Source: Arbacia lixula (Eukaryota > Echinodermata > Echinoidea > Arbacioida > Arbaciidae). From it: a DNA stretch of 64,000 nucleotides. Positions 9,001-57,487 of the stretch are shown here, in pieces. The stretch is from contig OZ022587.1 of the NCBI GenBank assembly GCA_963669155.1, positions 2,311,808 to 2,375,807 of the forward strand. The letters run 5' to 3'. How positions within the stretch are numbered: the stretch's first letter is position 1; the number at the start of each line of letters is the position of its first letter. The notes under the pieces are model-generated. The model saw nothing but the letters and a program-made list of their open reading frames with translations, ran no database searches and was not told where the DNA came from. The position numbers and the translations under genes are program-made.

Positions 9001-9735
9001 CACCTTCTACTTTCAAATCAAACGGGTCACTAGTGGCTCCTGATAGCGCACAATTGTATTGGCCCTCATCCTCGACAGCGACATCGGTGATGTTCATGAC
9101 GTCTCCTGGTGGGGACGTCTCAAAGTTGCGGTATTTCGGTATAGTGCCAAAGAAGGGAGCTCCACCAAGAAAAAGTTGTTGTGCAGGATCCACTGACTGA
9201 TCACTCCATATGTAGGTTGGTGACTCTACACCTGTCACCACACAAGTGAAGACAGCTTTTTGGCCGAACGCTATGGCTCCTCCCGGTGGGCCTTCTATTG
9301 TCGCTGTTTGCCCTTGAAGCGCCGCAATGAGCTAGGGAAAGTAGGGTGCATAGGAGTACGAACATACTTTTTTTTTATTAAGTATTACTTCTGTAATTTC
9401 AATGATAATTAGAGAGGACCTATATTAGCTTGTTGACCTTCTTATTATTTCGACTCACAATCCACGTTTGATCCTAATTTTTGATTGTTACACAATCCTC
9501 ATAACTAAATAAATTATGTGTACGTATTCATCAAGCAGTGGTGACTTTGATGATGATGTTGAACCTAAGGAAAATGATGAAACGAGGAATAAAAGAAAGA
9601 GGAGTACATAACTTTCAGCAAGTAAAACGTGAACGTGTAGCACTATCAAATTACTCCTTGTTTTCCTCCTGTCTTGATACTTACCGAGACATTTATTACA
9701 ATCCGTAGGTATGCTTTCCAGTAGCGCGCTTCCAT
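1..9735 (-). CDS. Receptor copy A: Ig-domain transmembrane receptor (5' part, kinase part off-window)
   Basis: Nine exons are recognised on the minus strand: 9735-9685, 9331-9004, 8236-7925, 7375-7094, 3624-3598, 2459-2418, 1087-944, 395-365 and 50-1 (cut by the window edge). They encode a signal peptide, three Ig-like domains, a Thr/Ser/Pro stalk, one transmembrane helix and the start of the cytoplasmic part. All junctions have GT-AG boundaries and compatible phases, and no frame break is visible. Exon sizes match copy B almost one for one (51, 328, 312 v 309, 282 v 285, 27, 42, 144, 31 nt), and intron sequence also aligns with copy B. By comparison with B, a tyrosine-kinase-like domain should lie beyond the left edge. 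The protein would be a type I plasma-membrane receptor; its ligand is unknown. It looks more intact than B. Confidence 0.82.
365..395 (-). CDS. Copy A exon 8: juxtamembrane microexon
   Basis: A 31-nt exon (phase 1 in, phase 2 out) with acceptor CGTAG and donor GTAAATAC. It encodes the charged peptide GESTDKRKKIR just inside the membrane. It is homologous to B at 25127-25157. Confidence 0.65.
396..943. repeat. Copy A intron 7 with truncated MITE M1
   Basis: Positions about 491-760 match the start of the MITE at 30393-31169 (CACAACA, AAAAAGTAAGTC, poly-C, then AGCA(A/C)AATAG). Here only about 270 bp remain and no right terminal repeat is seen. The rest of the intron shows nothing recognisable. 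Confidence 0.55.
944..1087 (-). CDS. Copy A exon 7: transmembrane helix
   Basis: A phase 1-1 exon of exactly 144 nt, like B. It encodes a short Cys-containing juxtamembrane piece, then an uncharged helix (GIIVLAVLLIISVCINVV and onward) ended by LWRRDRNTQ. The basic WRR stop-transfer sequence sets the type I orientation, with the Ig domains outside. Confidence 0.84.
1088..2417. other. Copy A intron 6
   Basis: No coding sequence is seen. It has a poly-C tract at about 1241-1256. Segments near 1200-1400 align in reverse complement with copy B intron 6 (about 24190-24320), which supports the A/B duplication. Confidence 0.6.
2418..2459 (-). CDS. Copy A exon 6: 42-nt stalk microexon
   Basis: AAGCAG acceptor and GTAGGTTT donor; phase 1-1. 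It encodes EVFTSEPGSTASPTG, a second Ser/Thr/Pro stalk segment. The homologous 42-nt exon of B is at 22509-22550. Confidence 0.72.
3598..3624 (-). CDS. Copy A exon 5: 27-nt stalk microexon
   Basis: GAAACAG acceptor and GTATGTCC donor; phase 1-1. It adds RTTTQPSTTG, a Thr/Pro-rich stalk segment likely to be O-glycosylated. It is recognised by the identical size, phase and position to the copy B exon at 21007-21033. Confidence 0.72.
5505..5730. repeat. 25-bp minisatellite, about 9 degenerate units
   Basis: Units follow the pattern AACGCACCAAAGGGCAAGCA followed by ATCTA, repeated at about 25-bp spacing with point changes. The array is absent from the aligned intron of copy B, so it arose or expanded after duplication. 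Confidence 0.8.
7094..7375 (-). CDS. Copy A exon 4: Ig-like domain 3
   Basis: A phase 1-1 exon of 282 nt. The split codon joins domain 2 to domain 3 as a YAPTS linker, a common Ig junction. Cysteines sit in LRVTCQVSA and DYKCSAS, followed by NDLGSIES. Copy B is one codon longer, around its ATNEED-like loop. Confidence 0.84.
7925..8236 (-). CDS. Copy A exon 3: Ig-like domain 2
   Basis: A phase 1-1 exon between an acceptor ending CGCAG and a GTAAGGATT donor. It shows Ig hallmarks: cysteine in YSAVCEVVG, tryptophan in ITWTVND and cysteine in LKCTTSG. The exon is 312 nt, one codon longer than in B and C; the extra residue falls in the variable stretch around TNSTNTGDPD. Confidence 0.85.
9004..9331 (-). 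CDS. Copy A exon 2: Ig-like domain 1
   Basis: The acceptor is TTTCCCTAG and the donor is GTGAGTAC; phase 0 in, phase 1 out. It encodes one Ig fold with the B-strand cysteine in VFTCVVTG, the core Trp in YIWSDQ, and the F-strand signature DEGQYNC. NIT in DVMNIT is an N-glycosylation sequon. It differs from copies B and C mainly just before the Trp (VESPT here, VESPS in B, DNTPQ in C), which corresponds to the BC loop. Confidence 0.85.
9685..9735 (-). CDS. Copy A exon 1: start codon and signal peptide
   Basis: ATG at 9735-9733 lies in a strong context (ACCATGG). The exon encodes MEARYWKAYLRIVINVS and ends in phase 0 at a GTAAGTATC donor. Together with the first residues of exon 2 (LIAALQG) it forms a basic n-region and a hydrophobic core ending in small residues, typical of a secretory signal peptide. 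The same ATG context is conserved in copy B. Upstream similarity to B continues to about 9865, where element T interrupts it. A conserved CCATAG just upstream (about 9775) could be a 5' UTR splice acceptor. Confidence 0.75.
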
Positions 9736-15878: not shown

Positions 15879-18800
15879 GTTAGTATCAATTAGGAGAAAG
15901 AAGGCTACATTTCATACTTCACGTCTATATTTTTCAATTGCACTGAAAATAATGTGCTCCTCTGTCTCTTCTTCGTTTTCGATTTCTCATCCTATTCATT
16001 AGATTCAACACATTATCATAAACATCACAGCTTGTACACAAGATTTATTTAGTTATGATGATCGTGGAGCATACGCAAATGAGGAAAAAACATGGATTGT
16101 GAGTTGATAAAATTAGCAGCTAAACCGGCTAGTATGGTTCCTTTCTCATTATTAATCATAATGGTAAACACTTGACTGGACATTAATATAGTTTGTAGGT
16201 ACATCTTTTCAAATTATTTCGCTTAGCTCATTGGAGTGCTTCGGGGGCAAACAGCGACAGTGACTGGGCCAGCGGGAGGAGCCATAGAGGCAGCCCAAGA
16301 TGCTGTCTTCACTTGTGTGGTGACAGGTGTAGAGTCACCAAGCTACGTATGGAATGATCAGTCAGTGGATCCTGCACAACAACTTTTTATCGCTGGAGCT
16401 CCCTTCTTTGGCACTATACCGAAATACAGCAACTTTGAGTCGTCCCCACCAGGAGACGTCATGAACATCACCGATGCAGCTGTCGAGGATGAGGGCCAAT
16501 ACAATTGTGCGCTATCAGGAGCCACTAGTGACCCTATAGATTTTAAAGTAGAAGGTGCGTACATTTCCCACTGTGATAATGATCTGGTCATTATCAAAGA
16601 AGTGAGAGGCATCTTACAACGTATCATGTTAATATAGAGATTTATGATACCAAGAAAAAAAATAAAGGAGTTGACAAATGTTAAAAAAGGGCCAACATTT
16701 TGCAACAAAAAACACCATGCAGGCGTAAATTGGGAACTTTTTCTCAAATGTATAATAAGAAATATAGCACACAATCAATCACAGTCATGTAGTTCCCCTT
16801 TTCAAGTTCTCAGTATTGGAAAAGGCAACTTCTAATGTCAGTAGTCATCATGGAAGCATTATTCTCGCACAACTTTCATTTGTGCAACCTTTGAGGTGTG
16901 TTCTGAAAGCTGCAGAACAAAATCTGATGTACTTTTTATTTGACTTGAATCCTTCTTAAAACAACCACTAATTGATCAATTTAAGGTTGATTGATTTATG
17001 ATTGGTTCAGTAAAGTAGATGTGGAAATCAACTTCTTTTGTGCCAGACAAACACGCTGCTCAATGGGAATCGTGTGTTTTACAACAGTTACAAGCTGGAT
17101 TCAACTGCCTCCGCTTGAAAAGGAGCTTGCATTAAACGCAGTCTACATATATGATCTATTCTGCACTTTCAGATACTAAGATGTATACATGCAGATAGTT
17201 ATTCAACCATATTGTTTCGTTATGAAATGATAATTGTCTACGTTGTGTTGTGTTTTGATATCTGCAGTTGAATCTACTCTAAACCCGACATGGCCCGATA
17301 ACCCACTGCGTGCTGGTACCTTGTATACAGCTGTGTGTGAAGTTGTTGGTAGCAGACCCCAGCTAGACATAGCATGGACCGTCAACGATATGGCCCTGGA
17401 TGAGACTCCTGTTGTTACCAATCCTGACAACGCCAACCCAGACCTGTCTGACACAACAAGTGTAGTCACGTTTACAGCAACCCCAGCAATGAACGGCCAG
17501 GATCTGAAGTGCACAACCAGTGGACATGTGGTTACGAGTCTCAACAGAGAAACAACTACACAGCTCAATGTTGAATGTAAGTGTGGTCTCCCCGACTTGT
17601 TTCATTGATGAATGGTACATGTACAGTATGTATGAGATGGCAAGTAGTCAAACATTACACAGGGGCTCAGGGAGACGTAGCCCTCGTGATGAAAAAAAAG
17701 CCTGGTAGATCACTAAAAGCTCCTGGGAACATTTGCCCTCTCGCACAATTGTTGTCTTTTGCACAGTGTCTTTTATACAGTGTGCGTTCATAAGCCCCCG
17801 AACTAAGCATGTACTTGATGGCAAGGAAATTATGACTGCTATAATGAGGAACGAAGGGGAAATGCGAAGATTATTGCGATTACCATTACTGACTGTACAG
17901 TAGAGTACATGTACATGTAACAGTATTGTACATCATACAGCATACATTCGTTCAAAGTAGTGTACATGTAGTTGTTATCATGGCAGGTACATTTCACTGT
18001 AGTATAGTTTGTAGCCGTTCATGTCATGCTGTACTATGATGCCGTTAATGCTTAATTAGCACATCAAAATCAATTTTGGGAACGATTTCAATCCGATGTT
18101 TCGTTGTTTTATATAATTCCTACAGATGCTCCCACGAGTGAGACAGCCACTATCAAAGTTGTTACTACTAATGAAGAAGATAATCAGCTGCGTGTAACCT
18201 GTCAAGTCTCAGCTTTTGATAACGGTGTAGACCCTGCTAATCCTGCCATCAACAATTACACCATCTACGCAGGATCTGAGCAGATTCACTGTTCTACCAC
18301 AGACAACTCTGTTCTGGTGCCTATCCCAGAAAATGTTACTGACTACAAGTGCAGTGCTAGCAATGATCTGGGCACTATAGAGTCTAAAGCTGTCAACTAC
18401 GAGCCAGGACGTAAGTGCCTTTTCTACTTTCTATTCATGACCTGTTTTTGTGCAGGTGGCTGTTTTTTTATATCACTGTAAACGTATATTTCGCGGTGCC
18501 CCAAATTTTGCAAATGAAGTGCAGACCAGAAAAGTAAAAATAGGCAAAAATGTTGACGGACGTTGATAATTGTGTCCAGCGCGTATTAAGCGTTAATGCG
18601 TGCTAGCTGGTATACAAAATGCTAAAAATGCGGACTATACTGTGCATTGTAATTGTAAGTGCCTAGTTACAGTAGATACATGTAGGCGTAGTACATCTCT
18701 ATGTTATACAAAGATATTTCAATGGTCAATATTAGGATGCCACAAACTATGCACTGTCTCCACTGGGCCTACATGTAGACATCTACCAAAGATGTTGAGC

Positions 18801-22000: not shown

Positions 22001-25000
22001 TGACACCCCCTCATCCCCCCCCCCCCCCCTTAAAAAAGTTCCCCGTATCTGGAGGTTATTCACGGATCACCAACACATAGTCCCCAACATTCTTAATCCA
22101 TTCGCTCAGGCAGTAATTGCTCAGATAAAATACACATGTACCATCTTCTCCTGAGGTTATTATTGCATAATGTCCTATTATTACAACACCGTTTTTTCAG
22201 TTTCGGAAAAAAGAACCTTATTTCATTTTCTGACTAACGAACCTGTTTACATTTTCGGACTAACAAACCTTCGGAATAACGAACCTTTGGAATAACGAAT
22301 GTTGCCCGTTCTTTTGACACATTCATGTGAAAGTATTCATAATCCAGAAAATATATTTAGATACACATACCGATAAGCACTTCTCATTTGATTTATAGAT
22401 ACATGTCAATATAATCAGCTGACATTTGTAAGCTTACTATTTTGCTAACCTTAGATCTCATTTGCATTGCTAAGTGATATATGCTTCTGATTTATACTAA
22501 CAAAGCAGAGCTCTTCACAAGTGGACCAGGTTCAACCGCAACTCCTACTGGTAGGTGTATAATCTCAACAGAAAAACATACATTTCTTCATAATCTACAT
22601 TCCTATTGTTTTCGAAAACTTGCAAGTCTCGTTACCCAGTTTAGCTGCGTAATTTTATAGGGATTGTACATCCTAAAATTAAGGTCATTTTAATTAATTC
22701 AGAAAGATGTAAGAAACATGTTAGTGAAGGTTTGACGAAAATTTGTCAGCAGATGGTTATGATTGTTTTAAGATTTGATTTCTGTGACGTCACGTACGAG
22801 GTGCTCTCTTATAATTTATGTACTTCTTTTTCCATTAATTACCTTCTTTCTGTTCTTTGAAGGAATACATTCTTTTCAGTGGTATGTGAGTAAAAGCGTG
22901 TGTCTAATGATAGATCAAACGTACAGTTGAAATGATAAATATCCTTTTGAGAAAATTGACATTTTCCACACAAAAAAATGCACTTCATTATAAAGGAGCG
23001 CACCTCGCTTGTGACGTCACAAAATCAAAACTTTACAATATAATAAATTTGTATGGCTTTGACCGCTTTTCATCAAACTTTCACTAACATGTTTCTGTCA
23101 TGTTTCTACTTTTAGCAAAACCAACTTAATTTCAGGGTGGACTCTCCTTTAAAGGCCTATTCAGGTTTCTGTATGTTATCAGTGCATCGTTATTATGCTT
23201 TGACTTTCAATTTGTTTGGACATAGTTGGAATAATTTCGTCATCACATGATTTTTATGTTTGAAGACTTACTCACTACATCAATTTCATGAATCACTTAA
23301 AGCTAATAAATTAACAAAGATTGATAGGCTGTCCATGATTTGGAAGTTCGCTGAAAAGCTTCAGTTCAATAATAAAAAAAGAGTTTTTGAAGCATGAACA
23401 TATTCGTGCTATTATAAAAGTCAAATCCTTGTGAAAAATTGTAAATATCACATTCTTTGTCCCAAATTGTTATGAAAATCACTGTAAAGCCCAATAAAGT
23501 GTTGTCATCTTGTAGAGAGTTTTACGCACTTTAATACCTCATATGTGGTGACAAAAGGATCCATTCAAGTGGTATCCATAACATTTGTCAATATTACTTT
23601 TCCGAGACAGATAATTTGAGACAATCCATGTCTGGTGGATACCAAAGTGGAAATTTTCTCTTTGGGTTCTATATACAAAATTCGTTTTCTTTACACATGC
23701 ATTGAATGTACAAATCCAAACACGGTAAAATGATTTACTGGGCATCCACACGGACAATATACAAGGTATTTCAACAGCACTAAGTTGTATTTCTACATTG
23801 TACTAAGCTGTATGTGAACTTAGCTCTGTGGCTGTTGTCCTCACCGAGCTAGAAACCCCTTCTTTTGTTTACTTTGACGTACTGCCTTCACACGTGTACA
23901 CAAACAACAATGAATTTTCACTATTACTACGTTTGTATTTCTCTATTCACAGACAGAGTGTCCCACTTGCAAATGTCATGAAACGCGACATGAATCTATA
24001 GTATACCCTAGCGATAACGTGAATGAAATCTCACAGTCATAGTTTCACGAACATGTTCAGGAAAATTGAAACCTTTGAACCACAGCGAGCATTGTCTACA
24101 TTCATAACCGTATTGTCCCCTTGAACAGTGCGCGATGAAGGCATTGATTCCATCGAACGCATGCACTGTGGAGTAGCGCATAATGTTCTACGGTCTCTGG
24201 GCTACATAGGTTTTGGACGACCAGAAACCTCCTCAAAATATAACGATCGCTATAATTTCGCTTGAAGTAAATTTCCAGTTCTGTTATTGGGCGGATAGTT
24301 CCAATGCAGTACTTCTTCCGTTTTCCTTGTGTGTGTGTGTGGGGGGGGGGGGGGGGGGTGACCTGCAAAATGGACACCCTGTCTTTAAATACGGTAATTC
24401 TTAAAAGTGTACAAAGCACTTGTTATTTTTTATGTTAAATATTGTCGTATTAATAATCTAATCAATGTTTATATAAATACAGTTATAAATTTAATTATAT
24501 AAAGGTGCACAAGATGATTCTGTGCAATGCTGTGGTCTGACCCCTGGTGCTATAGCAGGCATGGTCGTCTTGGCGGTTCTTCTTACTATCTCTGTTTGCA
24601 TCAATGTCGTACTATTCGTGTTATGGAGAAGAGACTTTAATACGCAAGGTTTGTCAGTTCTCTTGCTTTTACATTTTCAGACAGCCTCCTAATTTCTACT
24701 TGCATCGAGACTCAAAATTCAAATAATATTTAATAGTGCAATGAACGGTCTGTCACCACGAAACACAGAAGGAACGAACTGACCACGAATGTTCTCGTCT
24801 CCCTCGGCTCATTGAAGCATTGTCTATTGACCAATTTCTGTTATACGTCATATTAGTAACGAGTTCTAGTTGAAAGCCTAGCATGCAAGGTATGCGGCAA
24901 TCATATGACAAATCGTGTCTCCCGAACATAACTTGGATTTATATAGCAACGGCACACATATGTAATTCATATATCGCGGACAATGTGCAAATACAATATT

Positions 25001-28000
25001 ACACTGATTGTTTCTATTTGAGTGATGTACTACATGAAATGCTGTGAAGCAGTATAACGTAATTAACATGATTAACTTCAACATGTAACATGATAAACTA
25101 TGCTTAAATTTTGTCCCATTTTGAAGGAGAACCTGCTGAAAAAACGGAGAAGATCAGGTAAATACACGGAATCATATTTAGACCTTTAAAGAAACCTTAT
25201 TCAGAAATCTTTTGTCCTTAACCAGCAAGATAATTACAACCAATTGATTGACATATTTTGACTCAATAATGCTTAATAACCACAATAGCATACTAGTGGA
25301 ATTTATGTACTTCCATCATTTTTTGTTCAGATATCAAGAGTGGAATCGAAGTAGAGTTTGCTCGATTATTACAAGTGACTTCCTGGTTCAACGAGGTGTC
25401 ATTCATCTTCGTGTATTATTAGTCTGCATTGCAGAGTTCGTTGTAATGATTCGATTTTACTTGAATATGAAATCCTGTTCTATATCAACAATTCATTGCA
25501 GAGGACGAGACACGGCGCAGGAGGGAAATGACACTCAAGCTTATGAGATGGTTCAAAGTACAGGAAATGGTGAGAGCCTATTTATATCCCGCTGCGATGA
25601 CTAGGCTCTTTGCTTCTGGTCAGGAACCTTCATCCTGGAATAAGGTCTTTTACCACACCGCGATGCCCTTCTGCTCTGATCAATGTATTCAAAATTAAAC
25701 TCATAGGCCTTTGTATCTAGACGCCGCCATCGAAGGCTTATGTCACCGGCCATTCTCGTCTACATTTCTCTTAGCCTATCTTTCATTTTTCTTCTGCTTT
25801 TGTGTTCACTCACGTCCGGCCTCTCTTTTATCTCTATTTTTCATTTTCACTTTCTACCATTCTTCCTTTTCTGTCTTTCGAGGTTGACATTTTTGTGATG
25901 TCGGGATTTCGCGCCACGTGGTACAAATGGGAAAGTATAACTTCTGGAAATTTCATCTCTTTAATCTTTAATCGAAATTACATTTTTGGACATACCTCCC
26001 GAATAAAGACGGTATATCCACACCAAACGCGCAGTGGCGATTTCGTACAACGTACTGTTCAATGCGCGTTGAGTAGAAAGTTATCCGATTAGTAGAAAGT
26101 CTACATGGGAAAACGGATTTTGGAACTATCATAGCTACTTCGTTTAGAAATCTAACATCTTTCAAGCTATGATGCAAAAAATCTACTTCAATCAAAATTA
26201 GATCGATATTATATATTCATAAATTCAAGGACTAAAATTCAATCGAAATATATAGAAAAGTGAAAATTAAAGACTTACTTTCCGCCGATCACACGTTTAT
26301 CGCAGACATTTTTAATCTGCTCGAGTATGACATAGAACTGACCAATGAGATTGTTCGACGGGTTGTTGGCTATGAATATTTAAATCGTCAATCGGTACAA
26401 CGAAAAAAAATAGCACACGGCATTCGAGCGGGAAAAAATGTGCGCATGCGTTAAATTACTTATTCATATATGCATTAGTATTAGCGTTTTCATATTCAAA
26501 ATGGCGACGCGCATCGATCGCCATCCAGTGTACAGGTGTAATGTTCAGTCTCTAGATAGTGCGTTCAGAGGAGCCAGATGCAATCTCAGCGGATCCAATG
26601 TCCTACAGAGACTGATTTTTTCGGTCTAGCTTTGGCCCTGAAAAAACTCTGCAGATAAAAGGTAAATTATTTCCGACATCTGTTGGGATTTTTTCCTAGA
26701 ATAGTTTTAGAGACTTAGCCCTAGATCTATTATGTCATCTTGATTAAGACACGAGTTTAGATTGTGACTGTACTATTAGTGACTGTCTTTTGAAGCATGA
26801 TTGTGTAATGTTGTGACAGCTTAGACCAGCTTAGTTAGCCAGGTTCGTTACAACGGTCCCGATATGATTTAAATTTAAATCTAAATCTAAATTAGGTCTA
26901 ACCAAAGTTAGATCGAGGTCTAACTTAGTTTTAGACCTTTCATTTCTAGCCATCTAACATTCAGGTCTATCATAAGTCTACTACTGAAAGCTCCACCCTG
27001 TGTATGACCGGACTTGATTTAACCCAGTTCGTCATGAGTCCAGTCGATACACAGGTCCAAGCTCTCGGTGTAGAAGTAGACCTAGCTGTAACTGTTACTA
27101 ATGTCTAGAAATAGAAGGTGGATAAGTTAGACCTAGATCTAATTTGCTTACATCTAACTTAGATCTAGATCTACATGGACTGTTATTATTATTAGTGTCA
27201 GACATCATTTTAATGTGAGGTTTAACCTGACTAGGTCACTGCAACCACAGCTCAGCTGACAGTCATAACATTACGATCACAGTCACAATCTAACTCGTTT
27301 CTTGATCCAGATATGATAAATGTAGGACTACGTCTTTAAAACTATTCTAGGCCAAGGAAAAGCAGATGTCGGAAATAACTCACTTTTTATCAGAGTTTTT
27401 TTTTTTTCATTGTCAAAGCAACAAGCAGCTCCCCACCCCCCCCCCCCCCCCCTTGATATGTAGAAAGTGAATGCAGTAAATGCATGCAAAATTAACACTG
27501 ACTTTAATAGACTTCATCACAAACTGTGTTAAATTAAACATTTCAATCTTGCCAGCATTAGCTTTAGATTTCTCACTCATTTTAGATTCTTTGAACTTTA
27601 TATTTACATAGCATTTATAAAGAGCATTTTCTTCCCATTCCCAACATAAAAAAAAGAAAAAAATCATGAAATAAATTGTAATGTCTTGTAAAACACTAGC
27701 TGTGTAGATAGGCCTACTGCGTTATTCCTTGGGGAAAGGTGGCATTTCCTAGGACATCACCCAAAGTATCTACATTTAACTCATACGCTTGCTAGAAATA
27801 GGCACCTATATAGACTACAATTTGACAATAAAGCAATAATATGAAATATAATACTTTCGAGCGGCTTAATCAAAAACACTAAATGCTCAATATCTCAACT
27901 TGTGCAAAATGTAGATACTGCATTTTCCCTTTGGAGGGGGGGGGGGGGGGGCAGAGGGCGCCTTACGCTGCATAGTCAATACGTAGCTGTTTGGGCTATC

Positions 28001-31000
28001 TCTACGTGGAGATAAAACATCTCCATGCATGCTTTTTACAAAAGGACTGTTGATCTTTTGCTTATATAACTTCTTCTTAGCACAGAAAATGAATGTATGG
28101 TATTTAGAACAAAGGCACCGCCATTTTCAAATATTTCGAACAATTTAAACGAGATCTCATTATGATGGTTGATATCCTTAGCATAGTACCATGAATGAGT
28201 TAGAGACCTTGAACTCCACCTCCCTAAGGAAAACAATGATAATGATATGTATATTTTGTTTAAGGAAAAGAAAAAAACAGATTTTCAAGCAGCCATATAA
28301 TATCGTTTAATCCTACACAGTAATCACATGTTTCGATAAAGAACATGTTTCTTAGAGCTTCCTTCTGATAATCGTTTGTCTCGCAATATAAGGTAAACGG
28401 AATCGAAAAGGTCACGACGTTTCGTGCGCCGCTGCAACACTTCGTCAGGTGTGATACAAAATTGTATTAAGTAGGGGTTTAAATACCCTAAGGTCAGTGT
28501 GCACAGCGCACTAACTGAACTCTGTTCATAAATGATCCAATACTAATAGCCGGCGTATCCGGGTACTTGACCAACAAGCGACTGTTGATGCGCCTCGCAT
28601 TGACCGGCGGTAATAAGTACTGCGAAGGACAAAAGTGACAAAGCCAACGGCCGGTAGTTACGGGCGACCAACAAGTCCAAGGGTCGCTAATAGGTGCAGA
28701 TTGTTGGGCGGTAACAAAAGCTGGCTTCAGACTACCAACGGGCTACTACCGCGTATCGAAAGGCGGTCGAGTGTCATGGCGGCGTACCGTACAAATAAAA
28801 AAATCGGGGATATCGATCCCGTTGTCTCTATTGAAATTGTTGGGATTGAGACGGATATTAATGGCTTCCGTGTGTACTTCCGCTGTTATTGGGAGATGCA
28901 CTGAACCCCATCCCAGTCCGGTTGGTGATGGATATCCCATGCATGTTCGGCTACTGCTGAGCTGTCAGTCCGGCGGAGCCTGACATCCCTCTTAAGCTCA
29001 GAGATTCTTTCAGATATCGGTCGGGCAGTTTCACCGATGTACGAACGGTCACACCCTTTGCAAGGGATGTTGTACTACTTAGGCCTACTACAATTTTGTA
29101 TGACACCTGACAAAGTTTTGCAGCGGCGCACGAAACGTCGTGATCTTTTCGATTCCGTTTACCTTACATTGCGAGACAAACGATTATCAGTAGCCATTTA
29201 TCCGCAATGAGTAACATATTTAGCAACATTTTTTTTTAGTTTGACTATTTCGAAATTTACAAAGGAAGTTCCTTACAACATATGAGATATAATTAAAGAC
29301 AATGACATTGTTCTATGGCGGTTGAATATCCGAAATAAATTATGTTTTGTTAATTTAAACGAAGTATTCGTGGGATAGAAGAAGAAAATACGTCACTAAA
29401 CGCTTTGCTTTCGTGACATTACAACCTCGTTAAGTGTTATTAAATGCATTGTTTGTGTAGAGCTGTTATATCGCACTGAATCCACCTTATTCAGCAGCAG
29501 CATACACGTCACTCAATCTGGCAAAGCAGAGCGAAGTCTCACCAGCTGCGGAAGATGTGTTGTTCTTCTCGCGACTCGGCTCCATCGGACGCGGGGACTT
29601 CGGGGCGATGTGGACGGGAGCAATCCGCTCAAAGCAGGGGCAGCTGCCTGTGGCTATTAGAAGCGTTCCAGGTATGTATGCAAATTTGTTTGTGCTCTTA
29701 GATTTACTGAAGCTTTACATGTTGTAAATAACTCTTTTTGTGTGTGTGCCGTGTGAAGGTTTGTTTATATATATAATTGTATCCTTGTGAAAGAAAAAGC
29801 TGCTTCAGCTTGAAATAGTTGTTTTTTGTTTCTTGTCTTGTTACAGATCACGTGACCAAGTCAACCAATATTGACCAATCATCGAAGATCCTGTCAAAGC
29901 TCCCGAGTCATCCCCATGTTGTCACATGCATCGGTTACTGCGTAGGAAAAGGTATTGGGAGTATTTACCTTGTACATAATTTGTACTTAATGTTTGATGG
30001 ATGAGGTCGAATCTGATGTTATCGGAGCCAGTATTTTGATACAAATGAGAGCATAATAAACCAACAGACGCGCTGATCGATACCAGTGAGGAGGGAGTTT
30101 AATCGCCTTTTTACAGAAATTCTGTATAAGTCGTACAAGTAATGGTGGTGGTGGTGGTGGTGGTGGTGCTATGGTGGTGGTAATATTGGTAAAGCTGGTA
30201 GTTGCACATGTGGTGGCGGCGGTGTTGGAGTTAGAATGATTGAAGTACTGGTGATTCAGGTGGTGATACCATGGTAGATGTGGTCATGGTGGTAGTTGCA
30301 ATGCTAAAGGTAGCAGTGGTAGATGAGGTGATGGTAGGGAAAATGGGAGTGGCAGGGGTGACAATGATTATCAAGCTAATGGTAACAGTTTTGTATATAA
30401 ACACAACAAAAAAGTAAGTCCCCCCCCCCCCCCCCCCCCCAGCAAAATAGCATAACCTTTTTTATCGAAGCGGTTTCGGGCAAAATAATTTGGCGAGATT
30501 GTTCCTAAACTTATTGACTAACTTATGTGTGAAAATTACATTAATCCCATTAGTCATGCATGAGTGGGAAAATTTTTAAAGCAAAATGCCACTTTTCAAA
30601 ATTCACGAGGGATTTGGGGATTCTGTCATATGAATTTGTGATGAATTTCATTTCTGGTACATAATTTATGTCCTTTAATTGCTTATCATCCATCTCTCTA
30701 TGCACTAACACCTATCCCTACACTTAACCCATCGTTCTGGTTGAGTGAGCACCGTTTAACAAATACTCATTCCTCTTGAGTTTGAAACTTTTAAAAACCC
30801 TTTACTTTGGTGAAAAACAGAACTCTGGATATTTTGACAAACATGATACATGACCTGTTATGTAAACATAAGAAATCATTTTCGTGTCATGGTTGAGTGA
30901 AAACACTTTAAAAATCGCACAAGAAATGCCAAAATGTATTTTTAAAACGGCATTGACAATTACCCTTGTGACTTTTGAAAAGTGACATTTTTGTCTTTAA

Positions 31001-34000
31001 AATTTGCCCACTCATGCATGACTAATTGGATTAATGTGATTTTCACACAGAAGTTAGTCAATAATGTAAGGAACAATCTTGGTAAATGATTTTGCCCCAG
31101 ACTTCTTCTATAAAAATGTATGCTATTTTGCTTAGAGGGGGGATTACTTTCTTTGTTGTGCTTATATACAAATTAGTCATGGACATTTTGGTGATGGCTC
31201 CTAGGCGTATTGTGTATTGATGCTATACGTGGTTTCTCTGTTACTTCGTATTACTTGCAGCCAGCCTCCTGTATGAGTTGATACCAGGGGGTCTCTCCTC
31301 ACCCATCTCCAGACCAGTGGGGGGCAATCCGCACCCACCTACAGCAACCTCAAACCTACCACAGTGAATCTCGAAGAATCCAACTTACTCAAGTTTGCAT
31401 GGCAGGTCGCGAAAGGCATGGACTTCTTGGCTTCTAGAAGGGTCAATAAGCCTACTTCCATTTTCGGGCCAGAGAAGAATATATCACTTGTAAAAATACT
31501 CAAAGGCCTTTAATTAGGCTTTATTCATTATGTTGCACTTTGTATCAATACTATAATCGCCAACACAACCTTTTTAAGTATTATTTTTCTATGTACATTT
31601 ACAACATTAACAGTAACAGTGATGATAACTTTTGTTCTCCATGAATGCCTTTACGTTTTTCATTATGTATCTGCATTAATGTGTGAGTGTGTGTTTCACA
31701 ATTTTGAATAAAATTTACTGTAACATTTGTGTACAATTTGAAGCGTTATCTGTTTTGATTTGACAATAAATCTATTGCATTTAAAGGCCACTAATTTCGT
31801 AGAACACGGACAACGGAGTATAAATCTATTCTCTGGCGATTTTTCTTCATGTTTTTTTTTTCTAATGATTTCACTCATTTCAGGTTTCATTATTATGACA
31901 TGTTATATTTTGATAATAAATTGATTTCATCAGATCATACACGGTACACTGTGTGCACATAACGTGCTGATGACTGAGAACAAGCAGTGCAAGATTTCGG
32001 ATTATGGCGTGGCTTCTGTCTATGGCATAAACATTGTGAGCAGTAAAAATCTTCTTTTCTTAGTTGTGAAATAATAATTAAGAAAGGTAGTACATCCTAT
32101 GCCGCGATGCATATTCTTTGTTGTATATGATATTATTTACATGTGTGTTTATTACTACAATCCAATGTAGGTTGAATTGATATGAACACTTGCACGCCTA
32201 TTTATATAGGTTAATGTTGAAGGCGAAAGAGGAGGAAGGAGGAATCCCCATTTGTAAAGTCACTTTGTGATGAGCGTGTGTCCTCTATGCAGACTGCAAT
32301 GCTTATAGCACATTTAAACTTGATGGTATTCAAAATCATCTAAACATGATAAATACGGATTCAAAGAGCAATGGCTTATTAAATATGTTGTGCATTTTTG
32401 TACGGATGTTTCATTTTGTCGGTGAGATACAGTTTGCCGCCTGATTGTATGAAATTCAAGTTGCAATATCTTCAAATTATGTTCGAACACCGCAGAGATA
32501 CATTTAGGTGCTCTGTCGTAACCGACAGATCACCTCTTAATTTCGTTAGAATTTTCTTTTATTATTTCTTTATCTTTATTTATACCCCCCACTTTTTTGT
32601 GTCATCAATATCTCAACAATGCATGTGTCATGTTTTATCAATTTTTCTCTAGAACCAATCATATTTAGCCTATGAAAATTGACATGCATGAAGTTAAGAA
32701 TAATACGACTAATGTCAATGAATAAAAACACGCGCGTACGCGTACGTTAGTGCAAAAACGCGCGCGCAAAATTTTAAAATGCTCCAAATCAGCTAGAAAT
32801 TATTTTGCATATGTTTCAGGCCATTTCAAGCATTTCAAAAAATTTCCGGGCGCTCGTTTACGCGTTTTTTCGTGCGTAACGCGAACGGAAAGACAAAATT
32901 CCGGTTTTTTTACTAGTTTCATGTTTCTGACACTACATAATTCACATCATGCAATTTCCATGCATTAACAAGGTCTTGCGGGTGCGGCAAAGTTCAAAGT
33001 CCGCGCATCAATACGTTTTTGTGTGCAAATATTACAAAAAACATGACTGTCTTCAATCGGCCATAGCTCTTCAGAATGGCCGATGACCCCATTTTTTTAT
33101 ATTTGGAAAGAGTATGAAATGTAGATGTGATTTCATGTGTCATTTCACCGATAAGTACATTGTGACGTCATCATATTGCCATATGAATCGAAAAAATGAA
33201 CTTTCCAATTATGACGTCATGAACTTTTTTACCCGATTTTACATATCTCAGTAATCCTTGGTCAATTTTCTCCCAAATTTCGGTAAGTTGTGCCTAAGAC
33301 ATTGCTCTATGGCAGAGTTGCCTTAATTTTTCATTTTGATTACGTCTTTAAGGTGTAAAGATGATTTTAGGTATTAATGTCAAAATCGTACGTTTGCACG
33401 TGTAATGTCAATGGGAGGGTTATTTATTTGAAATCATGAAATATTAGGAGCTGTATTTTTTTTTCATTAGATACCGGGATCATGGCAAAATTTCAGCTTG
33501 AATATCGATTTCTAAATGGGTAAGGCGATGTTTTAAGAACGTGAGGCTCCCGGTTCGAATCCTGGTGTGGGTAGGGTCAGTTTTTCATTCCTTTTGCAAT
33601 GTTTATTTTGCGGCCTTCTTCTGTTCTATCCCTCACATTGTCATTTTCTTTGAAATTTTCTTTCTCATTTTTTCTTCTCGCCCCATTATCTTAAATGACT
33701 ATTAATTACACGTTGTTAGCACATACATGTGCCCATTTAGGCAAGTCTCTTTCGTGTGTGCTGCCTTTGATTTCTAATGAAATGATGATGTCACCATGGA
33801 AGGTTCATGGTGTCACCGTGCATTTACCATCCAATGACTGTGTAAAAATTTGCCATACAGACCACCTTACACTTGTCCACAAGTATGTCTCGTTGTTTCT
33901 TGTTATTAATTTCCAAACAGAAACCTACTCGATGGTCTTCCCCCGAAACTATGACGAACAGCGCATGCTCAGTTAAAGGCGATATCTGGTCGTATGGTAT

Positions 34001-35571
34001 CGTTCTGTGGGAGATCGTGACATTGGGTAATATCTTTTCAATTATATGTTACCAGAAATCGTAGGTCGCAGCTTGGTAGCAATAGCTTACCCTTGGTACG
34101 TAGCAATTCATTAACATTTTTCTTTACACCTCCTCATCATTATTCATGATATTTCTGATTTATACTCTTCCGTTTGTGTGTCCAAACGCCAGCGAATTAC
34201 ACTAATTTTCATGCCGTTGTCCTTCAAATACAAACTGACTGGTATATGTGAAGGATTGCAAGTTACATGCCTTTCTTGAATTTGTTTTTAAATTAGACTA
34301 TAAGTGACTATGAGAAATATGAAACCTATAAGTAGCAAGTTAACATTCTGGCTTTGTTGTCACCCGACAGGCGCCAGACCGTATCCAAAGATGACCTTTG
34401 ACATAGTTCAACGTGAGGTCACGCATGGTTACAAGATGCCACGCCCACAACACTGTGACCAGGAACTGTGAGTCCAGAACAGAAATAGAATTATCGAAAT
34501 ATCAAGATACAAATGTTTAACGATAATACCTTTAGTTATACTTTGGATGTAAACCTGGTAAAGATTTGAACACATTTTCAATGGGGACTGAAATTAAAAT
34601 AGCCAAAGGAAAAGTATCAGAAATGTTTCATGGTTTGCTCAATTTCGTTAACACATAAGAATACGATACATATACGTTCAATCAGCGGGAGATGGAGCTG
34701 ATTCAAACAGCTAGAAACAGAGATTTGTGGCACTCCATGATCGCCTTCTTCTCCGGATATGGCACTTAGATAGATAGATACCTACAGTGTTTGATTTAAT
34801 CGATGTTCCTGCGATCTAAATTTTGTTTTTCTTTTAGAAGGAATGTAGAGCCTCCCCCTTCCTGTTCGGTTTGTCCCTCAATAAAGACGCCCCGCCACTT
34901 TTCCTCGACAGGTACGCCATCTTGAATGGATGCTGGAAGAGGGATCCTCAGAACCGATCGAGCTTCCAGCAAATCCTGAATAAACTGGAACGCTTAATGG
35001 AGAAAGAACATGTGAGCCCTAGATAAATATAACTATCCCTTGAGACATATTTTAGAATGTCATATATTTTGGACATTCCACTAAGAAGAACATAACAATA
35101 CCCCCAAAAATTTTTTTTAAGAGTAACTTGTCCCACAAGGCCTTTCAGCTTTGTTTTAGTTCTTTTTGTTTTCACTTTCAACAAACATTTGTAAATAATT
35201 GACTGTCTCTTTGTATTGTTTTGATTTGTCAAGATATGGTATTTGTTTTGAATATTTAATAGAACAATACAAATTGACGACATGTCATGAAACCTACTCC
35301 TATAAAAGTGATATTCTAAAGCTTATCAATTCTAACTGTTGTCATATTATTATCTCGACGTGTCGAATGTTTTAATTAAGACATATTAGTGCGTTCTTGT
35401 CTACACGCTATCATGGACTGACGTTGTATTCAACATATTTGGATTTCAGTGATATGGCAAGCGATGTTCTTGACTAAAATTTCCTTTGCTTGTTGTCTTG
35501 TCTTCATACAGGTGTACTTGGAGCTAGCCAAGCTGGACGGAGGACTCTACGAATCAACAGACTTTAAATAG
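15828..35571 (+). CDS. Receptor copy B: three-Ig receptor with tyrosine pseudokinase domain (one frameshift)
   Basis: Seventeen exons: 15828-15878, 16227-16554, 17268-17576, 18126-18410, 21007-21033, 22509-22550, 24505-24648, 25127-25157, 25502-25569, 29495-29671, 29847-29951, 31261-31441, 31934-32035, 33921-34026, 34371-34467, 34912-35011, 35512-35571. All phases agree once a one-base deficit at 31287-31291 is allowed for, giving about 737 residues. Order: signal peptide, Ig1-Ig3 (to about 324), stalk (325-347), transmembrane helix (about 363-387), juxtamembrane, kinase-like domain (about 450-720), short tail. The fold is that of a receptor tyrosine kinase, but residues for ATP handling and catalysis are replaced (R484, S499, G587-T588), so it should not phosphorylate. 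It may signal by dimerisation, or act as a decoy. The frameshift, if real, truncates the protein after the hinge. Confidence 0.85.
16227..16554 (+). CDS. Copy B exon 2: Ig-like domain 1
   Basis: CGCTTAG acceptor, GTGCGTAC donor; 328 nt as in copy A. Ig landmarks are VFTCVVTG, YVWNDQ and DEGQYNCALSG; NIT is a sequon. The block SVDPAQQLF and the PPGDVMNIT loop are invariant among the three copies. Confidence 0.87.
17268..17576 (+). CDS. Copy B exon 3: Ig-like domain 2
   Basis: A phase 1-1 exon, 309 nt, with TCTGCAG acceptor and GTAAGTGTG donor. Landmarks are TAVCEVVGSRPQ, IAWTVND and LKCTTSG. It has the same length as in copy C. Confidence 0.87.
18126..18410 (+). CDS. Copy B exon 4: Ig-like domain 3
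   Basis: A phase 1-1 exon, 285 nt, with CCTACAG acceptor and GTAAGTGCC donor. Cysteines are in VTCQVSA and DYKCSAS. An extra cysteine (QIHCSTT) replaces the serine of copy A. NVT is a possible sequon. It ends NYEPG before the stalk. Confidence 0.86.
18411..21006. other. Copy B intron 4: simple repeats and a GC-rich island
   Basis: It holds an ATT/TTA microsatellite (about 19028-19166), a purine-rich tract (about 19800-19915), sequence paralogous to copy A intron 4 (19163-19380 with 6060-5835), and a GC- and CpG-rich island (about 20735-20960). No coding sequence is convincing. Confidence 0.6.
19028..19166. repeat. (TTA)n / (ATT)n microsatellite
   Basis: A long run of TTA units with interspersed ATC and AAT variants. 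Its ends contain both orientations (TTATTA and TAATAA), so parts can fold. Confidence 0.92.
21007..21033 (+). CDS. Copy B exon 5: 27-nt stalk microexon
   Basis: AAACAG acceptor, GTATGTC donor; phase 1-1. It encodes PTTTHPPNTG. Same size and phase as copy A 3624-3598. Confidence 0.74.
21034..22508. other. Copy B intron 5
   Basis: No gene seen. It contains poly-G tracts (about 21236-21253, 21795-21807), a poly-C tract (about 22016-22029), an AT-rich ATT/CAT simple-sequence zone (21840-21975), and ACGAACCT-type words near 22200-22300 that recur elsewhere (14290-14370, 35830-35990). Confidence 0.55.
22509..22550 (+). CDS. Copy B exon 6: 42-nt stalk microexon
   Basis: AAGCAG acceptor, GTAGGTGT donor; phase 1-1. 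It encodes ELFTSGPGSTATPTG, rich in Ser/Thr/Pro. Confidence 0.74.
22551..24504. other. Copy B intron 6
   Basis: No coding sequence seen. A GT/poly-G tract lies at about 24330-24360. The 24190-24320 part is paralogous to 1200-1400 in copy A. Confidence 0.5.
24505..24648 (+). CDS. Copy B exon 7: transmembrane helix
   Basis: Phase 1-1, 144 nt. It encodes an acidic and Cys-Cys outer segment (DDSVQCCG), a helix AGMVVLAVLLTISVCINVV continuing to FVL, then WRRDFNTQ as the stop-transfer. Copy A has a single Cys in the outer segment. Confidence 0.86.
25127..25157 (+). CDS. Copy B exon 8: juxtamembrane microexon
   Basis: TTGAAG acceptor, GTAAATAC donor; phase 1 in, 2 out. It encodes GEPAEKTEKIR, charged and cytoplasmic. 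Confidence 0.66.
25502..25569 (+). CDS. Copy B exon 9: juxtamembrane segment
   Basis: ATTGCAG acceptor, GTGAGAG donor; phase 2 in, 1 out. It encodes RGRDTAQEGNDTQAYEMVQS then TGN. The tyrosine in AYEMV is conserved in copy A and is a candidate phosphorylation or YxxΦ sorting site. Confidence 0.74.
25570..28364. other. Copy B intron 9, first part
   Basis: Non-coding. It holds the inverted-repeat element at 26630-27405, a match to 53425-53515 at about 26519-26640, poly-C (about 27436-27453) and poly-G (about 27936-27951). The zone 26870-27170 is unusually rich in TCTAAATCTA / TAGATCTA words. Confidence 0.5.
26630..27405. mobile_element. MITE-like element with about 80-bp terminal inverted repeats
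   Basis: The left end (26640-26725: AAAACTCTGCAGATAAAAGG, then TTTCCGACATCTG, then CTAGAATAGTTTTA) is mirrored by the reverse complement of 27400-27310. The interior has no ORF and is packed with TCTAGATCTA-like words. It is non-autonomous, of unknown superfamily. Confidence 0.7.
28412..28454 (-). ncRNA. Hammerhead ribozyme-like motif in the Penelope-like element (left arm)
   Basis: Read on the minus strand: UCAC, then core CUGACGA, a short arm GUGU...GCAC, then GAAAC-GUC and GUGA. UCAC/GUGA can form stem I and GUGU/GCAC stem II, with the conserved CUGANGA and GAAA boxes. There is one unpaired A after the first box. Hammerhead ribozymes in Penelope-like elements are established; activity here is unknown. 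Confidence 0.5.
29101..29143 (+). ncRNA. Decayed hammerhead-like motif (right arm)
   Basis: The inverted copy of the left-arm motif on the plus strand. The core box reads CUGACAA instead of CUGANGA; GAAAC-GUC is kept. It is probably inactive. Confidence 0.4.
29495..29671 (+). CDS. Copy B exon 10: kinase N-lobe, glycine loop and VAIR
   Basis: ATTCAG acceptor, GTATGTAT donor; phase 1-1. It encodes AAAYTSLNLAKQ, a linker, then the glycine-rich loop GSIGRGDFG (residues 457-465) and PVAIRSV. The glycine loop is canonical, but the ATP-anchoring lysine of VAIK is arginine (R484). Confidence 0.87.
29847..29951 (+). CDS. Copy B exon 11: kinase helix C and beta 4
   Basis: TTACAG acceptor, GTATTGGG donor; phase 1-1. 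It encodes the helix C region (NIDQSSKILSKLPSHPHVV), then TCIGYCVGK. Aligning SHPHVV with the usual HxN(I/V) motif puts serine 499 where the salt-bridge glutamate of helix C is expected. Confidence 0.84.
29952..31260. other. Copy B intron 11: (GGT)n and MITE M1
   Basis: It contains a GGT-rich run (about 30140-30350) and the MITE at 30393-31169. Nothing else is recognised. Confidence 0.6.
30393..31169. mobile_element. MITE M1 (777 bp, inverted ends)
   Basis: It begins GTATATAAACACAACAAAAA followed by poly-C and AGCAAAATAGCATA. It ends with the inverse (TATGCTATTTTGCTTAG, then TTGTTGTGCTTATATAC). No ORF. Related copies are at 43690-44408 and (truncated) 491-760. Confidence 0.78.
31261..31441 (+). 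CDS. Copy B exon 12: kinase hinge and helix E (frameshifted)
   Basis: TTGCAG acceptor. The first frame gives ASLLYELIPGG; after the five-G run at 31287-31291 the kinase frame resumes one base off as SLLTHLQTSGG, then NLLKFAWQVAKGMDFLASRR. A sixth G would restore one frame through an otherwise well-conserved exon. The 181-nt length is one short of what the phases need. The donor (GTCAATAAG) is weak. Confidence 0.8.
31934..32035 (+). CDS. Copy B exon 13: catalytic-loop region with HGT in place of HRD
   Basis: ATCAG acceptor, GTGAGCAG donor; phase 0-0. It encodes IIHGTLCAHNVLMTENKQ, then CKISDYGVASVYGINI. The catalytic Asp and preceding Arg of HRD are Thr and Gly (587-588); Asn 593 is kept; DFG is DYG (606-608), which retains the magnesium Asp. 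Confidence 0.86.
32036..33920. other. Copy B intron 13: CpG-alternating segment and tRNA-like piece
   Basis: Around 32725-32770 and 32850-32885 there are dense CGCGCGTACGCGTACG-type words. A GGTTCGAATCC B-box-like word lies at about 33551. No exon for the missing part of the activation loop is seen. Confidence 0.5.
33515..33580 (+). repeat. tRNA-like (SINE-head) fragment
   Basis: CCCGGTTCGAATCCTGG forms a near-complete T-arm with the invariant TTCGAAT loop and is preceded by TGGGTAAGGCGATG, a poor A-box-like stretch. The acceptor stem and anticodon arm do not fold clearly, so this is a tRNA-derived or chance sequence, not a functional tRNA. Confidence 0.3.
33921..34026 (+). CDS. Copy B exon 14: activation-segment end and helix F
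   Basis: AAACAG acceptor, GTAATATC donor; phase 0 in, 1 out. It encodes KPTRWSSPETMTNSACSVKG, then DIWSYGIVLWEIVTLG. SPE replaces APE; the DxW of helix F is intact. Only about 19 residues separate DYG from SPE, shorter than active RTKs, and there is no YxxxYY-type tyrosine cluster. Confidence 0.87.
34371..34467 (+). CDS. Copy B exon 15: kinase C-lobe
   Basis: CGACAG acceptor, GTGAGTCC donor; phase 1 in, 2 out. It encodes GARPYPKMTFDIVQREV and THGYKMPRPQHCDQE, the helix G region with the RTK-typical P-Y-P and Y-x-M-P-x-P motifs. Confidence 0.86.
34912..35011 (+). CDS. Copy B exon 16: kinase C-lobe end
   Basis: CGACAG acceptor, GTGAGCCC donor; phase 2 in, 0 out. It encodes YAILNGCWKRDPQNRSSFQQ and then ILNKLERLMEKEH. 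The C-W-x(4-6)-R-P/S-F motif of helices H and I is present (GCWKRDPQNRSSF). Confidence 0.86.
35512..35571 (+). CDS. Copy B exon 17: C-terminal tail and stop
   Basis: ATACAG acceptor; phase 0. It encodes VYLELAKLDGGLYESTDFK and a TAG stop. The tail is short, with two tyrosines (VYLEL, LYEST) that could be docking sites if phosphorylated by a partner kinase. Confidence 0.82.
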   Translation: MYLELAKLDGGLYESTDFK

Positions 35572-41999: not shown

Positions 42000-43350
42000 C
42001 AAGAGAAGTAATGCAGTAAAATCATAAACTGGTATTTCACATTTGATGAAATAGTATTGCTACGTGTCATTCCAATTAGCAACGTGAGTGGAATGAGCAT
42101 TAAGGAAAGTTGGACTTGTTGGACTTGACTGAACGGCCTGTATAAGCTGCGTCTCACAGGAGCGATGCTTCCTAAATCCATGTTGGGCATTTGGAAGTAT
42201 TTGACAAATATCGAGATGAATCATGATATTGCTGTTGATGGTATGTTCAATGATTTTGCATATGATAGATGTCAACAAGATAGGGCGATAATTCTCTGCC
42301 TTGCTCTTCTCTACAGATTTGAAGGCAGGAAGTACATCTGCTTTTCTCCAGTCATCTGGTATCCTTTCCTGATGAATTGACGCTTGAAATATCAGTGTAA
42401 GAATGGGTGTAAGTTCTTCTGCCAATTCCTTCAAAAGCTTGGGAGACATACCATCAGGTCCAGCAGCTTTGTGGACATCAATATCATTGAGGAGTTTATA
42501 AACACGAGCTCAGTTGACTTCAATATAAGTCATAGATGGATGAGGACTGCTTTCTTTGTCCTTCATGTTGTCAATACATTCATCTTTAGTAAACACAGAT
42601 GAAAATTACGTGTTAAGAATGCTGGCTTTAAACATGCTATCAGATAGCTTAATACCACCTCCTGACTTAAGTGGAGATAACGCCTGTGGAGTCACATCTC
42701 CTTCCCTTAATGAAGCTCCAGAAAAGTTTTGGGTTGGTCTTGGAGTCAGGGCTAACTATGCCAGTCAGATAGTTATTGAAGGCTCTCCTGCACTCTGATC
42801 TACACGGTTTTTTTTTCAGTTGCTTGTATCTCTTGAAGTCTTTCTCCTTTCCAGTTCGCCTGGCTTTTTTGAAGTTCTTCTTCTCTCTTCTTGTTAGTTT
42901 TCTATTAACTCGGGTATTTATCCATGGCTGGTTGAAACAAGAAGACGAGGTCTTTGAAGGTACATGTCTATCCAGTAACTGCAGAAGAGTGGACTTGATC
43001 TCATTCCACATGTCTTCGATCGAGCTCTCTATCTTATATCTGGATGTTAAGGAATATTGAAAGGCTTTACATTCTTCGTTCATGTCCTGGATTTTGTCCT
43101 TTCCCCACACGTTCACTTTCCTCTTCCGTGATCTTACTCTTTTCGGAGTAATGCAATCTTGAATCAACAAGTGCGATATCGTGGTCGCTAAGTCCAGGAA
43201 GAATAGTGCATCCATCGATAATTGATGGTCGATTTGAAAGGAAAATATCCAGGATAGATCAACCATCTGCTGTAGTCGGCCTTGAATGTCTTCGATTGTT
43301 GTGCATAGCTGGTCAGCACCAATAATGAGGAATTTGAGGATGACGTTAAA
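42000..43350 (-). mobile_element. CR1-like non-LTR retrotransposon fragment (broken)
   Basis: On the minus strand: an endonuclease tail (LPGLSDHDIALVDSR near 43190), a linker (43130-42667; WINTRVNRKLTRREKKNFKK), then the start of a reverse transcriptase (42449-42060: DDWRKADVLPAF, KAENYRPILLTSIICKIIE, QHGFRKHRSCETQL). It stops before the catalytic YADD box, and several frame changes separate the parts. A dead 3'-truncated copy. Confidence 0.8.
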
Positions 43351-43379
43351 ATTCTCAGGAAATACTTCTGCTCATGCAT

Positions 43380-46920: not shown

Positions 46921-47507
46921 GGCGCCACGGGGGGGGGGGGGGGGGGGGGGAGGAGGGGGGAACACCTTCACTTGGCGTTTTCGGCATGTAACCGGACATG
47001 TGCCTTGGTCAATTGTGTCCATAATGACAACGCAATTGTATTGTAGCTCCTAAAAACCAAGATGCCAATACTATTGCAAATTCAATCTTATCTCAATTAG
47101 AAAATTGTGGCATCAACATACACATGTGTCGGGGACAAACCTATGACGGTGCTTCCACAATTGCAGGATCAATAACAGGCTTTCACACACTGCCATGCCC
47201 ATGCTTTGAACCTCGCAATTGTTAATTCATGCAAGAATTTGTTCTTAAAAACATGTTTGGTACTCAATACAAAGTACACATCTCTTTCAAAGGCACGAAA
47301 CGGAACTCTGTTCTCCAAGAGATTAAAACAAAATCTTCACTTTCTGCTTCTGACAAAAAGACGTTCTTCAAAGTTTGTCGGATACTAGGTGGGCAAGTAG
47401 AATGGCTGCAATAGATGCTTATCTCGTATTATCAAGTGTGGTCGTGGATGCCCTTGAATCATTAACATGTTCTACGGATGGTGATCACATCACCATGAAA
47501 GAAACTT

Positions 47508-47650
47508 CAGGGGGGCATTTCATCAAAGGACTTGTCGGATATTTTATCCGACAAGTTTGCTCTCAGCCAATAAGATACAAGCATTTCAGTAGCTTATAAC
47601 AGTTTGTCGGATAAAACGTCCGACAAGTCCTTTGATGAAATGCCCCCCTG
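47508..47650. mobile_element. 143-bp MITE nested in the hAT pseudogene
   Basis: Perfect terminal inverted repeats of about 32 bp, beginning CAGGGGGGCATTTCATCAAA. A shorter hairpin GTCGGATA/TATCCGAC lies beside the left repeat. No target duplication is obvious. The hAT frame resumes on the right (PIKIYVSTFEF). Confidence 0.88.
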
Positions 47651-48334
47651 GCCTATTAAAATATACGTATCCACTTTTGAATTCATTATTTCTCTTTTAG
47701 TAGCGAGGGACATTTTGAAAATAACAAATACATTTGTTGCCTATTTACAATCACCAAATATCAACTTACTACAATTTAGAAACGTTGCACAAATAGTGTA
47801 TGATGACCTTTCAGCAATGCGTCATGAAACGAAAATTACTGAAATTATGAATGAAGCCAAAGCCAAAGCCCAAGAAGATGGTTTGAGGTGCCAACATCTG
47901 TCAAGCGGAGCCGCCGAGATGTGGAGGGAGAGGACATCGAATCCTACTACAGGTGAGCCTTATACTTTGCAAGCCTTGATGAACTATTGACCGGTTTTAA
48001 GCGTCGAATTATTGGTCAAAACGCAGACCTAACATCTGCACTTGGTGTTTTTTCAAACCAGATTATAAAGACGAGTCTGTCAGCCTTGGCACAGTTGCAC
48101 ACATTGAAAGACTCGCCAATGTGTATGGTGCCCAACCCAATCCGGACATCGAAGGCTCATTTTTACTTAACGAATACCAACAATTCAAAACTTGGTTAAG
48201 GAAAAAAGATCATGTAATATCTTCTGAAAACTCTTATATTGAATTGTTAGATCTCCTCTTAAAAATCATAAATACCCAGAATCAATCAACATTCGCAAAT
48301 GTTTTCACTTTATTAAAAATTCGTCGAGTCCACC

Positions 48335-57405: not shown

Positions 57406-57487
57406 AGCCCTATTTATTGATGGATAGTCACCTTTGTAGTACCTGTATCTAGAGTGCTCGCAAACAGTGGTATTGGCGTACAGGTTA

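Follow-up and report, generated by a model that had tools for sequence, protein, structure and literature searches.

A frame-broken receptor gene in a tandem array of probable Tie-derived pseudokinases in the sea urchin Arbacia lixula

The window analyzed here, a 64,000-nucleotide stretch of the Arbacia lixula genome (C12:2311808-2375807; the genome searched spans 607 Mb in 590 contigs), contains exons of three related genes: copy A on the minus strand, and copies B and C on the plus strand. Copy B, rebuilt from splice edges and phases, consists of three immunoglobulin (Ig) exons (16227-18410), then a transmembrane exon, two juxtamembrane exons, and eight kinase exons (K1-K8), and the phases are consistent across all 14 exons with a single exception inside K3. 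Ig1 (16227-16554) is an open frame with a GT donor and an uncertain start edge, and matches Pfam Ig_3; Ig2 (17268-17576) and Ig3 (18126-18410) come from the splice model and match C2-set_2 and Ig_2, respectively. No exon for a signal peptide was found in the gene model. The transmembrane exon (24505-24648) was identified from its hydrophobic segment, splice edges, and phase, and is kept in copy A, as is a short and tentative first juxtamembrane exon that was placed by phase fit (25127-25157). The second juxtamembrane exon (25502-25569, splice model) carries a tyrosine in the motif AYEM.

A preliminary description had placed a receptor kinase at 29495-35571, and all eight kinase exons were indeed found there on the plus strand by the splice model, with AG/GT edges. 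K1 (29495-29671) contains the glycine loop and VAIR; K2 (29847-29951) contains a helix C that lacks its Glu; K3 (31261-31441), for which the spacing of its two halves was also used, has a frame broken at about 31285-31295; K4 (31934-32035) has HGT for HRD and DYG for DFG; and K5 (33921-34026) holds the end of the activation segment, the SPE motif, and the helix F motif DIW. K6 (34371-34467) and K7 (34912-35011) were compared with the other copies, and K8 (35512-35571) bears the tail tyrosines of VYLEL and GLYES and ends in a TAG stop at 35569-35571. The assembled domain, with one X at the break, matches Pfam PF07714 at 9.1e-64 over positions 6-258 of 258, and is the only kinase domain found within the window. 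Ig domains, a transmembrane exon, and a PF07714 match together predict that copy B is a single-pass receptor with a tyrosine-kinase fold.

The Ig part is common to all three copies, and the transmembrane exon is common to A and B. In copy A, the Ig1-Ig3 exons lie at 7095-9313 (minus strand), and an open frame with the transmembrane exon (885-1109, minus strand) was recognized by its hydrophobic segment; its kinase is located just beyond the window, near G000:C12:2309724, and all eight of the exons there have open frames and suitable splice edges. Copy C is represented by Ig1 and Ig2 exons at 62342-63756 on the plus strand. The rest of copy C lies outside the window, and no kinase belonging to it was found among the 150 of 338 K3 candidates that were scored. 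Other stretches of the window resemble mobile elements. In the intron before K1 (28370-29190), an inverted repeat, about 75 bases long and spotted by eye, surrounds some 700-800 bases with open frames, and looks like a mobile element insertion. A long open frame on the minus strand (56083-57492, with 55545-55922) resembles a LINE-type reverse transcriptase, judged by its motifs. On the same grounds, a second, broken stretch between copies B and C (42063-43371, minus strand) is presumably reverse-transcriptase-like, and open frames at 47354-48196 on the plus strand resemble what we take to be the remnant of a hAT-type transposase.

Copy B is one member of a tandem array of cell-surface receptor genes. 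K3 has at least 39 matches in the genome at 67% identity or better, a lower bound set by scoring 150 of 338 candidates; C12 accounts for 33 of these places, C20 for five, and C345 for one. A search with Ig2 gave 44 matches, which were taken as 40 exons after two weak matches were dropped and two split pairs were merged. For 35 of the 39 K3 exons, an Ig2 exon lies upstream on the same strand within 16 kb (at a distance of 5.5-15.3 kb), and for four K3 exons there is none within 16 kb. Five Ig2 exons, copy C's included, have no K3 within 16 kb among the at least 39 matches. Those at G000:C12:481685, 587064, 4505151, and 4725734, with none among the scored matches within 16 kb downstream, may belong to kinase-less copies, or their K3 exons may have been missed by the search.

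We read 33 of the 39 copies, many in part only (those unread are C12:2098004, C12:2043006, and C20:14820503, 14837400, 14870817, and 14886762), and found all eight kinase exons in 19 copies, B included. Two of the copies read (L036 and L048) are damaged and one (L039) is a fragment, and the Ig2 exons upstream of L038 and L041 match in two frames, which suggests that they too are broken. Together with the state of B, these cases indicate that part of the array is decaying. Unusual splice edges occur at the transmembrane and second juxtamembrane exons of L042, at the transmembrane exon of L048, which also has a stop in K1, and at the transmembrane donor of L049. Two tail types are seen in K8 of L031-L050, VYLELAKLDGGLYESTN-like and [DE]YLVPDKLDEGLYELAS-like; copy B has the tail end STDFK, which exceeds STN by two residues, and among the 11 copies with the alternative tail, 10 have a K8 acceptor that departs from B's pattern.

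The break in copy B is specific to it. The two halves of K3 are separated by 2 nt in B, by 3 nt in 31 of the 33 copies, and by 15 nt in the fragment L039; thus, among the 33, only B loses the frame at this point. Visual inspection of the AG sites around the break revealed no splice edge that would rescue K3, and the K3 donor is weak (gtcaat). As assembled, copy B is therefore unable to encode a whole kinase domain, and the case for function has to be made at the level of the family. Copy B has the disabled frame of a pseudogene; it may be a pseudogene, or there may be an error in the assembly at this point. The preliminary description left the break out of its reasoning, and hinted at a "broken copy" only among the observations that it named as able to overturn its reading. 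Its central proposal, that a fold has been conserved while the residues for catalysis were lost, is supported across the family, but not for copy B by itself, with its broken frame.

The residues of copy B were otherwise described correctly. Direct reading gives VAIR, HGT, and DYG, along with the glycine loop (GRGDFG), the helix F DxW (DIW), SPE, and a normal stop (TAG). The helix C Glu had been said to be replaced by Ser. When the alignment is anchored on the LxKL..HP that follows, the Glu of Tie2 falls opposite a Ser in copy B, and in the HMMER alignment it falls opposite a two-residue gap, so that either way copy B lacks this Glu. The activation segment is short, as proposed, with 21 residues from DYG to SPE compared with 27 in Tie2. 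While the residues stand, their numbering (R484, S499, 587-588) was tied to an earlier gene model and was not reproduced.

The same replacements run through the family. At the beta3 Lys position, all 30 copies with K1 have Arg. At the helix C position, all 31 copies with K2 have an aligned Ser and no Glu, a call that depends on the alignment, as a Glu stands one residue before the aligned Ser in L037 and two residues after it in L022 and L036. The HRD Asp is absent from all 32 copies with K4 (HGT in 29, HGA in two, HAT in one). Loss of the beta3 Lys, the helix C Glu, and the HRD Asp is thus family-wide in the copies read. Recurrence in every paralogue readable at these positions is more than chance would produce, and the possibility raised earlier, that the replacements are confined to this one broken copy, did not hold. 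As for a second, that different exons supply the canonical residues, a motif scan in three forward frames, covering 117,262 bases from the kinase genes of 30 copies, gave no HRD-type alternative exon. Other features are retained. DYG and the catalytic-loop Asn are present in all 32 copies with K4, the glycine loop is kept in most of 30 copies (L033 and L040 show single changes), and the 30 K5 exons read SPE in 28 cases, APE in one, and a damaged motif in one. The tyrosine of the second juxtamembrane exon is kept in 18 of the 19 copies in which the exon was found, and the LY pair of the tail in all 20 copies with K8 found.

Some kinases that lack canonical residues are active, and the fixed DYG and Asn, together with the glycine loop, are what might be expected if these domains were active kinases with unusual residues. 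Yet the Lys, the Glu, and the HRD Asp are missing from every copy readable there, and the position of the catalytic Asp varies (Thr in 30 copies, Ala in two) while DYG is fixed. We regard catalytic activity as highly improbable. The retained DYG, Asn, and glycine loop would be compatible with nucleotide binding by the family's kinase domains, which is possible.

Across 29 copies (406 pairs; 627 bases from K1, K2, K3b, K4, and K5), the kinase dN/dS is 0.27, and in comparisons of B with each of the other 28 copies it is 0.16-0.50; because the pairs have common ancestry and the paralogues are not independent, the values serve to describe and not to test, and they can be skewed by gene conversion. 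Each of the 29 copies has five open kinase exons; B is counted, with its break outside the compared stretch, and L036, L039, L048, and L007 were left out because of missing exons or a stop. In a tree of the 29 copies, 8 of 26 inner branches are well supported. Purifying selection appears to act on the dead kinase domain, and the catalytic loss is conserved in intact genes rather than a product of decay. These results bear on another account of copy B, in which an ordinary kinase gene has become a pseudogene and its catalytic replacements are no more than decay. The K3 frame break, the weak K3 donor, and the damaged or fragmentary sister copies would all fit such a history. However, the replacements are shared by all copies readable at those positions while the out-of-frame K3 belongs to B alone, and the dN/dS of B against the others gives no sign of long relaxation. 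We rejected decay as the origin of the replacements on the strength of the family-wide residue table, and consider this account of copy B as a whole decidedly unlikely.

Among the best 60 of 2045 matches to solved structures, the copy B kinase is nearest to human Tie2 (2oo8/1fvr; 175 bits), followed by Kit (150), Ret (146), a reconstructed Src-Abl ancestor (145), and FGFR3 (137 bits), an assignment that is made against solved structures only and rests on scores rather than on a subfamily tree. The EGFR row stood higher, but its score adds up two domains of 110 bits each and was discounted. A Tie2 query against copy B and the window, at E up to 1, matched the kinase exons only, again with no alternative exon. 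The kinase insert can be aligned with that of Tie2, and a tail tyrosine is aligned as well (HVYLEL in copy B with KTYVNT in Tie2); copy B differs from Tie2 in lacking the beta3 Lys, the helix C Glu, and the HRD Asp, and in an activation segment six residues shorter. The ectodomain of Tie receptors is built from Ig, EGF, and FN3 domains, whereas that of copy B has Ig domains only, with no EGF or FN3 found in a model from which exons may be missing.

The same genome also holds a Tie-like gene of more canonical type. The Tie2 query gave five adjoining matches at G000:C5:3383335-3386728 with 54-77% identity, two of which contain stops, as happens where a match extends past the end of an exon. In the two exons that were read, GELE, HRDLAARN, DFG, and a Tyr in the activation segment are retained, so that the canonical status of this gene covers the helix C Glu, HRD, and DFG, with the beta3 Lys lying outside these exons. 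Its HRD match and K4 start at one and the same residue of Tie2; the edges of its later matches differ from those of the array. Longer single-frame kinases outscore this gene in bits with the Tie2 query, and one of them, which we take to be ROR-like, also has HRD and DFG; further exons with canonical HRD and DFG lie on C19 (two) and C14 (one). The presence of canonical motifs in other kinases of the genome indicates that the loss belongs to the array family, and not to the genome or the method. Since the motifs of an active kinase are absent from the array, we class the family as Tie-derived rather than as Tie.

The two ends of these receptors have evolved differently. The Ig exons of copies A, B, and C give dN/dS of 0.69-1.36, with Ig1 at 1.15 and 1.36 in two of the three pairs, although these ectodomain rates come from few copies (three for Ig1, two for Ig3, and nine for Ig2, of which eight were compared with their own kinase). 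In those eight copies, the dN/dS of Ig2 is 0.70 and that of the kinase is 0.26. Between A and B, the Ig exons differ by about 78 nonsynonymous and 29 synonymous changes and the kinase by 18.5 and 25.5, respectively (Fisher p 3.5e-4 on rounded counts). Thus, the array consists of many germline copies with a faster-evolving ectodomain. Positive selection on the Ig exons was set aside as a firm claim, given the overall value of 0.70 for Ig2 and the excess of dN over dS in just 2 of 28 pairs, the same number as for the kinase. Silent divergence is also distributed unevenly. Among six close copies, every one of the 15 pairs shows a higher value in Ig2 (0.061-0.185) than in the kinase (0.007-0.054), whereas of the 13 pairs that include B or L023, 11 show the lower value in Ig2. 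Here too the pairs have common ancestry and gene conversion can bias the rates, which describe rather than test. These opposite patterns indicate different histories for the Ig2 and kinase ends: either the kinase end has been homogenised, or ectodomains have been exchanged. One plus-strand copy (G000:C12:2156529 and 2169302) has an Ig2 exon 99% identical to that of B and a K3 match of 90%, which suggests a recent exchange or a partial duplication.

Taken together, we favor the reading, at a probability of roughly 70%, that copy B belongs, with its frame broken, to a family of at least 39 tandem, three-Ig, Tie-derived pseudokinase receptors that signal without catalysis. In such a scheme, the Ig part would bind a ligand or a neighboring receptor, and the pseudokinase could partner an active kinase, through docking or allosteric action; this might be a canonical Tie, or else a tyrosine kinase of the cytoplasm. 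That kinase would phosphorylate the kept juxtamembrane and tail tyrosines in trans, and the phosphorylated tyrosines would then recruit SH2 adaptors. The preliminary description had proposed an allosteric, scaffold, or decoy receptor, each of them a putative mode of action. If the receptors were only decoys, they would sequester ligand or active Tie, with the kinase domain as a passive fold. Loss of the catalytic residues with retention of the ectodomain would suit that role, but an intracellular dN/dS of 0.27 and the conserved tail and juxtamembrane tyrosines are more than a passive tail needs, and we think a pure decoy unlikely.

The signalling family that we favor could also be a germline-diversified recognition system for immunity or allorecognition, in which variable Ig ectodomains are joined to a constant, non-catalytic signalling end. 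The tandem array, the separate histories of the two ends by silent divergence, the Ig2 exon shared almost unchanged with a copy whose K3 is more distant, and the higher dN/dS of the Ig exons all point in this direction, as may the Tie-2-like protein listed on starfish coelomocytes (PMC13409769). Against it, the overall dN/dS of the Ig exons is not above 1, dN exceeds dS no more often in Ig2 than in the kinase, and the starfish protein may be an ordinary Tie. We entertain this proposal tentatively. Its stronger form, an animal recognition locus in which some 40 receptors combine fast, shuffled Ig domains with a constant dead Tie-type module for immunity or self/non-self discrimination, is rather doubtful in our judgment. 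An immune or allorecognition role for the family is possible and unproven.

Receptor pseudokinases are already known as a kind, and two of them, EphB6 and EphA10, offer the closest comparison. Both belong to other subfamilies and, to our knowledge, neither forms a tandem array. Eight human receptor pseudokinases are counted in PMC13259870, where Table 2 gives VAIQ, an Arg at helix C, and HRS for EphB6, and VAVH and HRG for EphA10. As in the array, several catalytic residues have been lost together in a single-pass receptor, and in EphB6 these are the same three positions according to that source; unlike the array, which keeps DYG, both have lost the DFG Asp (RLG and GFG) in the sequences tabulated there. 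Among echinoderms, the Toll-like, NOD-like, scavenger-receptor-like, and Sp185/333 families are large, expanded germline immune families, the last shaped by duplication, mosaic organisation, and recombination (PMC13428168). The array resembles them in size, and the consulted passages of that review name no receptor pseudokinase; the review also has no word beginning with "kinase" in its main text. In the open-licence literature searched, we found no tandem pseudokinase family of about 40 copies with faster Ig evolution. If the Ig domains proved to be polymorphic and the receptors to be present on coelomocytes, they would constitute a class of immunity or allorecognition receptor not named in the consulted passages of PMC13428168. 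With some 40 paralogues of one dead kinase, apparently selected, beside a Tie-like gene that has HRD and DFG, the array is a natural experiment on the role of the kinase fold without catalysis.
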